Positions 19,980 to 28,630 of a stretch of DNA of 41,898 nucleotides are shown here, piece by piece. Source of the stretch: a virus; IMG/VR virus record IMGVR_UViG_3300043774_000236, positions 1-41,898 of that record. One strand, given 5' to 3'. The position numbers were made by a program, and so were the translations under genes. The notes beneath the pieces are model-generated. The model saw only the letters and a list, made by a program, of their open reading frames with translations. It was not told the DNA's origin and searched no databases. Every line of letters begins with the position of its first letter. Position 1 is the stretch's first letter.

Positions 19980-20052
19980 TTGAGAGGCCGCGACTCGAAC
20001 GCGGGCCTTTGGCGTTCCTGCCAATGTGCTGCACCACCTACACCACCCCTCA
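19980..20052 (-). tRNA. tRNA-like sequence with an abnormal anticodon loop (possible pseudo-tRNA or attachment site)
   Basis: On the minus strand the 73 bases fold as a cloverleaf: acceptor TGAGGGG with CCTCTCA, D arm GTGT with GCAC and a GG-containing loop, and a perfect T arm CCGCG-TTCGAGT-CGCGG, then a discriminator A. The anticodon arm TTGGC-AGGAAC-GCCAA pairs well but its loop has six bases and no U33, so no normal anticodon can be assigned. No CCA is encoded. The D arm and acceptor are reminiscent of tRNA-Gln. It may be a decayed phage tRNA, or a tRNA-derived attachment site, being in the same arm as the integrase about 1.3 kb away. The rest of the 19796-20074 gap shows nothing else clear. 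Confidence 0.5.
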
Positions 20053-24055: not shown

Positions 24056-24889
24056 ATGAGCACGGAAATCAGCACACACAGAGCCAGCACAGGGCTGGCA
24101 CTTCAATCGTTCGACGACGCTTTCCGCTTCTCCAAGATGGTGGCGGCATCGGAGTTCGCCCCCAAGGATTTCAAGGGCAAGCCTGAGTCGTGCATGCTGG
24201 CGATCCAGCACGGCAGCGAGGTCGGGCTTTCCCCGATGCAGAGCCTTCAGTCGATTGCCGTCATCAACGGCAGGCCGACCATCTGGGGCGATGCCGCCTT
24301 GGCGTTGGTTCAGTCCTCGCCAGTGTGCGAGTACGTCAAGGAGTACGTCGAGGGCCAGGGCGACAACCTGACGGCTGTCTGCGAGGCAAAGCGTCGCGGC
24401 TACCCAGCACCTACCGTCAGCCGGTTCTCAATGGCTGATGCCAAGCGTGCTGGTCTGGCTGGCAAGTCTGGCCCGTGGAGTCAGTACCCAGAGCGGATGC
24501 TGGCTCTGCGTGCCCGTGGCTTTGCCCTTCGCAATGCGTTCGCTGACGCTTTGCGGGGCTTGATCACCGCCGAGGAGGCACAGGACTACCCGCAGCCAAC
24601 CGTGGCGTCAGAGCCCATCGTGGTGCGTCCCAAGTTCGATGACGAGCCGCGACCGGCGAAGGTCGTGCTGTCGCCCAAGGCGAAGCAGGAGCCGCAGCGG
24701 ACTCGGGCCGAGGCGGGACGCCTGGCTATCAGCGCCGCCAGCACCATCGAAGCCTGCGAGGCACTGCGTTCCAAGCTGGACACGTACGCCAACGCAGGCG
24801 AGATCACTGACGCCGAGTTCGCAGAGTTGACCAAGCTGCTGATGGGCAAGGTCGAAATCCTCATGACGCGAGAGGAGGTGACGGCATGA
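24056..24889 (+). CDS. RecT-like single-strand DNA annealing protein (putative)
   Basis: The start at 24056 has GAAAGGA upstream and gives 277 residues. The core region (SFDDAFRFSKMVAASEFAPK, AIQHGSEVGLSPMQSLQSIAVINGRPTIWGDA, then MLALRARGFALRNAFADALRGL) has the layout of phage RecT-type annealases: a membrane-less helical protein with the GLSPMQ.LQ.I.VI.G.P..WGDA signature. The last 110 residues are a variable, charged tail. It probably anneals single-stranded DNA during recombination-dependent replication and partners with the downstream RusA resolvase. No partner exonuclease is seen beside it. Confidence 0.75.
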   Translation: MSTEISTHRASTGLALQSFDDAFRFSKMVAASEFAPKDFKGKPESCMLAIQHGSEVGLSPMQSLQSIAVINGRPTIWGDAALALVQSSPVCEYVKEYVEGQGDNLTAVCEAKRRGYPAPTVSRFSMADAKRAGLAGKSGPWSQYPERMLALRARGFALRNAFADALRGLITAEEAQDYPQPTVASEPIVVRPKFDDEPRPAKVVLSPKAKQEPQRTRAEAGRLAISAASTIEACEALRSKLDTYANAGEITDAEFAELTKLLMGKVEILMTREEVTA

Positions 24890-25881: not shown

Positions 25882-26108
25882 GCATGCAAAAGCAGCCAAC
25901 GTTCACGCAGACTCTTATGCGTCTGATCCGAAAGATGCTTAACGACATGGCAGCCGAAGATGGACGGTCTATTGAGTCGAGCCGCGCGTTGTACGAAGCG
26001 GCAAACGCTATCGGCAGGAATCACGTGGCACTCGTCAAGGAGGCCGCCGAGGCGGTTGAGTGGCAAAAGCAGCTACAGAGCCGGGAGGCAAGTAATGTCG
26101 GCAGATGA
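25878..26108 (+). CDS. Small helical protein
   Basis: The start at 25878 has GGAGG five bases upstream and an ATGA overlap; it gives 76 residues. The sequence is one long helical protein (FTQTLMRLIRKMLNDMAAED, HVALVKEAAEAVEWQKQLQSRE). It overlaps the replication gene by 14 bases. An accessory to replication initiation is possible from position only. Confidence 0.5.
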   Translation: MSMQKQPTFTQTLMRLIRKMLNDMAAEDGRSIESSRALYEAANAIGRNHVALVKEAAEAVEWQKQLQSREASNVGR

Positions 26109-26988
26109 ACGAGTGGACATTTACATGCCGCTCTACGTCAGAGACTTCCTGACTGCCACGATCGGTTGGACGGCCTCTGAGCGAGGACACTACCTCACCC
26201 TACTGATGCTGCAGTGGGACAGGGAGGGACTGCCATCAGACATTGACGCTCTGGGCCGGCTGTCGCCTGGCGTTGCCGAAGTTTGGGGCATGCTCCAAGA
26301 CAAGTTTCCGCTAGAGCCTGATGGCCAGCGACGCAACGCGAGGCTGGAGGAGCATCGTGGCCGGGCAGTCTCGCTTCGCCGAAAGCGATCTGAGGCTGGC
26401 AAGGCAGCTGCAGCCGCACGGATTGGCTCCATCAATCGTTCATCAAACGTTGAGCAATCGTTGAGCAATCGTTCATCAATCGTTAACCATCCACCTTCAC
26501 CTTCACCTTCACCGTCAGATTCAGGGATTTCTTCTAAAGAAGAAATCATTCAACCGGCTGCGCCGGTTGTTGCTACGAGCGATTCGCCGAAGCGGCGAAA
26601 ACGCTCGCAGCACCACAACGCAGTTTCTTGGAGTTGTGAAACGGGCTGGGCAGGGATCACGGCAGAAGACCGCAAAACGTGGGCCGAAGGATTTCCGGCT
26701 GTCGTGCTTGATGTCGAGCTAATCCGAGCATCCGAGTGGCTGAAGGCCAACCCAACTCGGGCTCACAAGAGCAACTGGCGTCGCTTCCTCGTCTCGTGGC
26801 TGACTCGGTCGCAAGATCGCGGCGGCACAAACCGCAGCGTTGGGAAGAGTGCAGACGATGCCGCCAAGAGGGCGTTGCTTGAGCGTAAGTCAAAAGAGTT
26901 TGCCGGATACAGGCCCGCACCATACCGCACGCCAAAGGAAGTCATGGCGCTTGCAGCATCAATGAAACTCAAGGAGGAGGACGCATGA
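26095..26988 (+). CDS. DUF1376 phage replication protein
   Basis: The start at 26095 is preceded by GGGAGG; it gives 297 residues. Residues 6-90 are a DUF1376 domain (IYMPLYVRDFLTATIGWTASERGHYLTLLMLQWDREG), found in phage and prophage replication initiators. Residues 95-175 form a low-complexity linker rich in Asn/Ser and then Pro/Ser, where the DNA carries iterons and hairpins. The C-terminal about 100 residues (DRKTWAEGFPAVVLDVELIRASEWLKANPTRAHKSNWRRFLVSWLTR) match the helical domain that recruits the host replicative helicase in such proteins. Probable role: origin binding and helicase loading, like lambda O. Confidence 0.8.
   Translation: MSADERVDIYMPLYVRDFLTATIGWTASERGHYLTLLMLQWDREGLPSDIDALGRLSPGVAEVWGMLQDKFPLEPDGQRRNARLEEHRGRAVSLRRKRSEAGKAAAAARIGSINRSSNVEQSLSNRSSIVNHPPSPSPSPSDSGISSKEEIIQPAAPVVATSDSPKRRKRSQHHNAVSWSCETGWAGITAEDRKTWAEGFPAVVLDVELIRASEWLKANPTRAHKSNWRRFLVSWLTRSQDRGGTNRSVGKSADDAAKRALLERKSKEFAGYRPAPYRTPKEVMALAASMKLKEEDA
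26431..26599 (+). other. Candidate phage replication origin (iterons plus hairpins) within the replication gene
   Basis: Five head-to-tail 11-base units with consensus ANCAAWCGTTN occupy 26431-26485 without gaps. A CACCTT repeat follows (26492-26514). Then come three perfect inverted repeats: GATTTCTTCT-AA-AGAAGAAATC (26526-26547), CAACCGGC-TGC-GCCGGTTG (26551-26569) and TTCGCCG-AAG-CGGCGAA (26583-26599). The array is in the linker-coding part of a replication protein gene, the same arrangement as the lambda origin within gene O. Function is inferred. Confidence 0.55.
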
Positions 26989-27224
26989 CAACAACCACAG
27001 AACGCCAGCCGCTCACGGCCCGCCAGCAGGACGTGCTGACGTGGATCGCAGGCTACATCAACACGCACGAGTACCCGCCAACGCTGCGAGAGATTCAGCA
27101 CCACTACGGGTGGAAGACGCCCAACGCGGCGAAGTGCCACTTGGAGCCGCTGCGGCGGAAAGGCTACGTGACGTGGCAGGAAGGCTGCTCGCGGACGATC
27201 CGCGTGATTGGAGGTGACGCATGA
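26985..27224 (+). CDS. Stand-alone LexA-type DNA-binding domain
   Basis: The protein has 79 residues and matches the N-terminal wHTH of LexA: LTARQQDVLTWIAGYINTHEYPPTLREIQHHYGWKTPNAAKCHLEPLRRKGYV. Full LexA has a second S24 protease domain for dimerisation and self-cleavage, which is absent. It might bind host SOS operators or phage sites without being inactivated by RecA. It overlaps both neighbours (ATGA), inside the replication cluster. Confidence 0.8.
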   Translation: MTTTTERQPLTARQQDVLTWIAGYINTHEYPPTLREIQHHYGWKTPNAAKCHLEPLRRKGYVTWQEGCSRTIRVIGGDA

Positions 27225-27412: not shown

Positions 27413-27675
27413 GCGACATCGCCTTGGTCTGCATTGGTTCGATTTTGCACGCCGTGACGTTCACGGTTGGCATTTTGGTGGGGACTTCTCTGCGAAAGGA
27501 TGTGCGGAATGACAGCAACGAAGGAACGAAGAAAGACGAAGGCTGGTGGCATCAGCCTGTCAGCGCCGGAAATCAAGGCGGCTCTAGCAGCCGTGGGCCA
27601 GGCGGTGCCAAGCCGGTCGCCACGGCCCATCTACCAGTCAGTGCTCCTGTCGGGCGCGGTTCTGTCTGGGAGTGA
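27409..27675 (+). CDS. Small membrane-anchored ORF overlapping the clamp gene
   Basis: The protein has 88 residues. Residues 4-26 (IALVCIGSILHAVTFTVGILVG) form a membrane segment; the last half, overlapping the clamp gene for 167 bases, is Gly/Ser/Pro-rich and may be only a by-product of the clamp frame. The ATGA start overlap and natural N-terminus argue for real translation. Function is unknown. Confidence 0.4.
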   Translation: MSDIALVCIGSILHAVTFTVGILVGTSLRKDVRNDSNEGTKKDEGWWHQPVSAGNQGGSSSRGPGGAKPVATAHLPVSAPVGRGSVWE

Positions 27676-28630
27676 CGGCGATGTCCGCATCGACGTGACG
27701 CTTGAGACGGTCCCGAGCGATGTGAGTCTGCTGCTGCCGAAGGACAGGCTGTCTGCCATTCTCGGCTCGCACTCGGGCGATGAAATCACGATCACGCCTG
27801 ACGAGTCGTCGTGCGTCATCAAGGCTGGGCGTGGCGAGTGGACGCTGCCAACGGAAGACGCGGGCGAGTACCCGGCGTGGGACGTGGTGGGTGCGAAGCC
27901 TGTTACACGGTTGCCGGTGGATCAGTTCTGCCGTGCCGTGAAAGGCGTCGTCTTCGCCGTGGACGACGAGTCGAGCCGCTACGCTCTCGGTGCCGTGCTC
28001 GTCGAAGTCAAGGGCGAGGTCGTCACGTTCGTCGCCACGGACGGTCGCCGGCTCTCGTGCGTGAACTGCGAGCATGACCTAGCGGTGGACGACTCGCAGA
28101 CGCTCGTCCCGGCTCGTGCGATGGCAATCATTGCTCGGCTGGCTGCGTCAGCGGGTGATGCCAGCGTGCAGCTGGAGACGACCGGAAAGGAAATCGTCGC
28201 CACGGTTGGCAGCGTGACGGTCAAGGCTCGCCTGCTCGACGGTCGCTACCCTCGCTGGCGTGACACGCTGCCGGAACGTGATGCCAAGGCAACCACGGTC
28301 AGCCGTGCGGACCTGCTCGCAGCGACGCGGGCCGCAGCCATCGTGACCAGCGACGAGAGCAAGGGCGTGCAGTTCTCCTTCAGCGACGGCGGCATCTGGC
28401 TGCACGGGCAGAGTGCCGAGAAGGGCGAGTCGAGCGTCACCTGTGACGTTGTCGAAGCCGGTGACAAGGCGACGGTCAAACTTGACCCGCTGTTCGTCCA
28501 GCAGTGGCTCGGCGGCATCGACAGCGAGGCAGAGCCAGAGGTCGAGGTCGAAGCCGTGGACGCACAGTCTGCCGTCATCCTGCGATGCGGCGATAACACT
28601 GGCGTGATCATGCCACTGGCGGTGGACTGA
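27509..28630 (+). CDS. dnaN: DNA polymerase III beta sliding clamp (phage-encoded)
   Basis: The start at 27509 (MTATKERRKTKAGG) has AAAGGA eight bases upstream; it gives 373 residues, the usual length of bacterial beta clamps. The three clamp repeats can be followed: ALAAVGQAVPSRSPRPIYQSVLL and WTLPTEDAGEYPAWDV in domain I, FCRAVKGVVFAVDDESSRYALGAVLVEV with FVATDGRRLS in domain II, and DLLAATRAAAIVTSDESKGVQFSF with the C-terminal CGDNTGVIMPLAVD in domain III. It would encircle DNA and tether host or phage polymerase and repair enzymes. A phage-borne clamp is uncommon; no phage DNA polymerase is seen, so it probably recruits the host enzyme. Confidence 0.9.
   Translation: MTATKERRKTKAGGISLSAPEIKAALAAVGQAVPSRSPRPIYQSVLLSGAVLSGSDGDVRIDVTLETVPSDVSLLLPKDRLSAILGSHSGDEITITPDESSCVIKAGRGEWTLPTEDAGEYPAWDVVGAKPVTRLPVDQFCRAVKGVVFAVDDESSRYALGAVLVEVKGEVVTFVATDGRRLSCVNCEHDLAVDDSQTLVPARAMAIIARLAASAGDASVQLETTGKEIVATVGSVTVKARLLDGRYPRWRDTLPERDAKATTVSRADLLAATRAAAIVTSDESKGVQFSFSDGGIWLHGQSAEKGESSVTCDVVEAGDKATVKLDPLFVQQWLGGIDSEAEPEVEVEAVDAQSAVILRCGDNTGVIMPLAVD

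Follow-up and report, generated by a model that had tools for sequence, protein, structure and literature searches.

Why should the gene for a phage replication initiator hold, within its own reading frame, five direct repeats, a tract of shorter repeats and three hairpins? The question is raised by a DUF1376 gene on a viral contig of unknown host, the whole of which (41,898 nt) was analysed and is here called the window. An initial annotation read these elements as a replication origin like that within gene O of phage lambda. We consider it very likely that positions 26430-26612 are indeed such an origin, lying within the gene of its own initiator and bound by that protein's DUF1376 domain. 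Intragenic origins are known as a kind, and the DUF1376 version appears to be undescribed. In the literature searched, which lay outside subscription, DUF1376 was not linked to any origin, and the papers mentioning DUF1376 that were examined give it no function.

The window encodes an integrase, RecT, RusA, a beta clamp, a terminase, a portal protein and tail genes. Of the window genes that were scanned, none was recognized as encoding a helicase or a loader. Directly behind the initiator gene, at 26985-27224, is a gene whose 79-aa product is little beyond a LexA DNA-binding domain. This is followed, close downstream at 27467-28630, by a phage-encoded DNA polymerase III beta clamp; a P-like helicase-loader gene is absent there. 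Elsewhere in the contig, a 120-bp unit is repeated in tandem at the left end (1-463), in about 3.9 copies, and ARAGORN reports a doubtful minus-strand tRNA at 19980-20052, with no amino acid assigned. The GC skew does not turn near 26.5 kb, which counts neither for nor against an origin there. The window has no DnaA-box-like site (TTWTNCACA).

The start codon of the initiator gene, the ATG at 26095, was picked by alignment with relatives. Its assignment to DUF1376 held: the domain, at aa 10-86 of the protein, scores 34.2 bits against the curated Pfam cut-off of 30.1 and is the sole Pfam match. PHROG 3992 and PHROG 9327, both 'primosomal protein', match the protein as well. The AlphaFold2 model has a confident N-terminal domain, then a disordered linker and then a C-terminal domain, and the repeats and hairpins do fall in the linker-coding part (Table 1). 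Because the putative origin lies mostly where the protein is disordered, the DNA there is left free for two purposes. Compared with PDB structures, the model has no confident match, only weak winged-helix matches (for example MarR, DnaD and ORC2), and a sequence search of the PDB with the initiator protein found nothing. Among viral structures the matches are other DUF1376 and Lin1244-like proteins.

Table 1. Features of the initiator gene and of the proposed origin within it (window coordinates)
Feature	Position	Strand	Description and basis
DUF1376 replication initiator gene	26095-26988	+	297 aa; Pfam PF07120, PHROG
N-terminal DUF1376 domain and long helix, aa 10-118	26122-26448	+	presumed iteron-binding; AlphaFold2 confident, co-variation with the iteron unit
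Five contiguous 11-bp iterons	26430-26484	+	unit CATCAATCGTT / GAGCAATCGTT; repeat search, synonymous shuffles, divergence
Disordered linker, aa 118-161	26446-26577	+	DNA overlaps iterons, tract and hairpins 1 and 2; pLDDT below 50
CACCTT hexamer tract, 4.3 copies	26492-26517	+	presumed unwinding or single-strand capture element; repeat search, divergence
Hairpin 1, GATTTCTTCT-AA-AGAAGAAATC	26526-26547	.	10-bp stem and 2-nt loop, or 9 bp and 4 nt; DNA fold
Hairpin 2, CAACCGGC-TGC-GCCGGTTG	26551-26569	.	8-bp stem; DNA fold
Hairpin 3	26571-26612	.	inner perfect 7-bp stem 26583-26599 nested in longer stem; DNA fold
C-terminal domain, about aa 178-241	26626-26817	+	presumed helicase or loader contact; AlphaFold2, relatives

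The C-terminal domain is common to initiators with unrelated N-terminal domains. The same C-terminal domain is joined to N-terminal domains without a Pfam match in the proteins of survey loci L042 (1557-2441), L051 (1485-2426), L052 (1584-2414), L053 (1641-2519) and L054 (1704-2744). Instead of 11-bp iterons these genes have pentamer tracts (AGAAG, AGACA, AGAAC) and some GTAACG-type sites. In L056 and L057, which share the C-terminal domain and have an N-terminal domain not matching DUF1376, there are 11-bp iterons and 9-bp repeats.

The five repeats are real. They follow one another without gaps in the order CATCAATCGTT, CATCAAACGTT, GAGCAATCGTT, GAGCAATCGTT, CATCAATCGTT, and the consensus ANCAAWCGTTN fits all five in the frame starting at 26431. 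Their period-11 score, 38 of 44, is the top score of all periods from 7 to 30 across the window. In 20,000 synonymous shuffles of the gene the score averages 20.2 and never exceeds 32, and so coding constraint does not explain the repeats, as the initial annotation had argued. One further CAAWCGTT match is present in the window, at 24104 in the RecT gene (CAATCGTTCGA), and none elsewhere. It had also been argued that the period places every unit on nearly the same face of the helix. This stands as an approximation, the units being 11 bp and not 10.5 bp long, and helical phasing is supported indirectly by the DUF1376 family as a whole, in which period 11 stands out (see below), its harmonic at 22 is also seen, and periods 10 and 13 show no peak.

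The CACCTT tract lies beside the repeats, as described, and in the window gene alone its synonymous-shuffle p is 0.006. At about 50% GC within a 60% GC region it is not very AT-rich. Family tracts have a GC content of 0.38-0.41 against about 0.55 around them, with G making up 10% of the coding strand. The tract unit varies by lineage: CACCTT, CAACGT, CCCCTT (L044) or CCA (L047).

All three of the hairpins initially described were found; the third, however, proved to be nested in a longer stem that had been missed. Folded as single-stranded DNA, 26515-26620 has an energy of -35.1 kcal/mol against -14.2 kcal/mol in shuffles (z = -10.1). Among 11 relatives, both sides of the stem have changed at three pairs in hairpin 1, at one pair in hairpin 2 (CG to AU in 2 sequences) and at one pair in hairpin 3, which has one position mismatched in 3 sequences. 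These 5 pairs comprise 17 cells, against 4.9 cells in shuffles, and sliding the hairpin partners by 1-3 columns destroys the pairing. The hairpins carry compensatory changes and their pairing is kept. Phages that otherwise differ (L061, L062, L067, L075, L143, L292) share a near-identical TTCTTCACTTCGTTCAGAAG-like hairpin motif downstream of the tract or linker in their DUF1376 genes.

At what level does selection act on these elements? Synonymous divergence was taken as the share of same-residue codon pairs that differ among 12 relatives. It is 0.438 in the N-terminal and 0.454 in the C-terminal coding part, and falls to 0.126 in the iterons, 0.019 in the tract and 0.058 in the hairpins, a 4- to 20-fold reduction of synonymous change relative to the flanks. 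Amino acids over the iterons, in contrast, change no more slowly than those of the N-terminal domain; in clade A the respective values are 0.219 and 0.141. Selection on the iterons, tract and hairpins acts at the DNA level. Relatives that keep the residues and lose the repeats, which the initial annotation had named as evidence against an origin, are the opposite of what we saw: repeats, tract and hairpins are kept and the residues of the iteron segment change.

The iteron unit has also been rewritten in concert between lineages. It is CATCAATCGTT in clade A and AGCAAACGCAT in clade B, and the pairing extends to the tract, CATCAATCGTT / GAGCAATCGTT being found with CACCTT and AGCAAACGCAT with CAACGT. 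Among 14 relatives the distance between iteron units follows the distance between N-terminal domains (rho 0.81) and not that between C-terminal domains (rho -0.05). The unit is co-inherited with the N-terminal domain, for which their physical closeness could partly account.

Is this organization peculiar to one phage? We tested 127 non-redundant DUF1376 genes for periodicity against a synonymous-shuffle null, with significance at 0.01 and with 214 ORFs of the same loci as controls. The loci came from records of phages, from viral contigs and from contigs of bacterial genomes. Period 11 is significant in 37 DUF1376 genes (29.1%) and in two controls (0.9%; Fisher p = 1e-15), and period 22 in 15.7% of DUF1376 genes and no controls. 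Periods 6, 7 and 12 reach 13-19% of DUF1376 genes against at most 1.4% of controls, and periods 8, 10, 13, 17, 19 and 20 stay at 0-1%. One scan used linker peptides as queries and may have been biased toward repeat-bearing genes; the result held for loci found through the N-terminal domain alone, with period 11 in 15 of 73 genes against 1 of 130 controls (p = 9e-7). Only about one third of the DUF1376 genes pass the strict period-11/22 test. In the remainder the spacing is 12 bp or irregular, or no array can be detected.

In the significant genes the array has a median position of codon 113, usually just behind the DUF1376 domain, and a few peak inside the domain near codon 52. A tract of 5-7-bp units comes after the array in 24 of 25 genes. 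A period-11 run (AACGACCGTTGGACG...) is found within the domain-coding part, at about codons 51-56, in L065, L159, L172, L173, L176 and L228, which are genes of Pseudomonas or enterobacterial type and may thus have a second, upstream iteron cluster. Hairpins of at least 7 bp are found behind the tract in 20% of genes, compared with 4.6% of synonymous shuffles and 4.4% of other windows. A DnaB, DnaC/YdaV, DnaA-domain or P-like gene is nearby in 31 of the 127 loci, directly behind the DUF1376 gene in 21. In two Rhizobium phages (L062, 3249-3824; L076, 2171-2629) the gene directly after the DUF1376 gene encodes a DnaA-like protein.

How might such an origin work? By analogy with lambda O, we infer that initiation would begin when copies of the initiator bind the five iterons through their N-terminal DUF1376 domains, one per helical turn. 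The bound initiators would form a nucleoprotein array, the strain of which would open the adjoining short-repeat tract, and the initiator, again on the lambda model, may hold the single strand of the opened tract. After strand separation the hairpins would fold, and they probably mark the point of entry of helicase or primase. The C-terminal domain would recruit a host or phage helicase, or its loader.

Other functions for the region have to be weighed. The array might instead be an operator, at which the DUF1376 protein would bind its own gene to silence the early operon or make its transcription pause, with the hairpins acting in the mRNA. An intragenic protein-binding array of this kind would likewise be conserved at the DNA level and stable hairpins would form in the transcript too. 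Plasmid initiators, moreover, often regulate themselves. However, the array lies about 335 bp inside the coding sequence, and an operator leaves unexplained the tract, its almost constant place directly after the array across the family, and the lambda-like order of the elements. We therefore regard regulation in place of replication as improbable. The two roles are compatible and not exclusive, and an operator could coexist with the origin.

It is less probable still that the region is a recombination joint for swapping the N- and C-terminal halves of initiators, the repeats and hairpins being crossover sites. The hairpin segment is nearly identical in a relative with an unrelated N-terminal domain (L042), and hairpin 2 is kept in L051-L053, as such a joint would have it. 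Yet the iterons and tract, on the N-terminal side, differ by lineage where a crossover site should be alike, so that only the hairpin end is accounted for, and an origin, too, would be expected to have mosaic swapping beside it. Least credible is a low-complexity linker whose repeats arose from slippage or amino-acid composition and have no function as DNA: the linker is disordered and reads PSPSPSPS across the tract, but such an artefact is rejected because synonymous shuffles encoding the same protein lack the periodicity and synonymous sites are frozen while residues change, and the 5-, 7- and 11-bp periods are out of codon step.

If the region is an origin, a family of unknown function in Pfam, common in phages and prophages, gains a testable function, and the replication origins of DUF1376 phages and prophages become readable from their sequence. 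The unit and the N-terminal domain change together, which makes the family well suited to studying how such a domain reads DNA. The 5-7-bp tract, almost invariant at synonymous sites and yet different from lineage to lineage, raises a pointed question about the way in which phage origins are opened. Speculatively, there might be a widespread class of initiators in phages, made up of DUF1376 proteins together with some relatives whose N-terminal domains are unrelated. In this class the DNA-binding domain, the matching iterons and the 5-7-bp tract would form one mobile cassette before an exchangeable C-terminal domain. The tract would be more than a low-melting sequence: it would bind the initiator as a single strand, a counterpart in phages to the DnaA-trio. 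We put this forward tentatively, as a possibility with the odds somewhat against it.

Three known systems bear comparison with this locus. Iteron plasmid origins of the Rep type, like the origin proposed here, have direct initiator repeats in helix phase beside an opening region (PMC5043065). Unlike them, the proposed origin lies inside the initiator gene, and no Pfam match to a plasmid Rep family was found in the window initiator, nor any DnaA-box-like site in the window.

The ydaU gene of the Escherichia coli Rac prophage belongs to the same Pfam family, DUF1376, as the window initiator. In the same place as in the window it has TGTTCAAACA-type repeats (period 23, p = 0.002) and then a AAAGATACAGATAAAGAT tract. 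Its repeats are of mixed orientation and spaced about 23 bp, whereas those of the window are spaced 11 bp, and an AAA+ gene, ydaV, lies behind it. An active origin, oriJ, has been reported for the Rac prophage (PMC3945230). We found no text that places oriJ in ydaU, and a possible correspondence between the two is a lead.

The closest known system is the origin within gene O of lambda and the Stx phages, with initiators of PF04492 / TIGR01610. Lambda O binds its iterons, opens an AT-rich tract and binds the single strands of that tract (PMC7466680, PMC5043065). The proteins are unrelated in sequence, as the initial annotation had said: BLASTP gives no significant match between lambda O and the window initiator, and PF04492 and TIGR01610, both matched by lambda O, are absent from the window protein. 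The DNA differs as well. Contiguous 11-bp direct repeats in the window contrast with imperfect inverted repeats of about 19 bp, spaced 20-24 bp, in lambda (PMC7466680); a short tandem tract and several hairpins stand in place of a plain AT-rich tract; and gene P follows O, whereas no P-like gene follows the window initiator. Our periodicity test nevertheless recovers the lambda iterons, as a positive control, at periods 20, 23 and 24. Their annotated place is codons 116-145 of O, just past the Phage_rep_O domain (aa 22-115) and close to the DUF1376 family position of about codon 113, and behind them are an A-rich tract and an inverted repeat, TTCGTCAGAGAATTCTGGCGAA. The analogy with lambda holds for order and position: in both systems the elements sit in the middle of the initiator gene, immediately downstream of the sequence for the DNA-binding domain (a presumed one in DUF1376), and run from iterons through a tract to an inverted repeat or hairpins. 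The DUF1376 locus very probably works like the lambda ori, but with an initiator from outside the O family.
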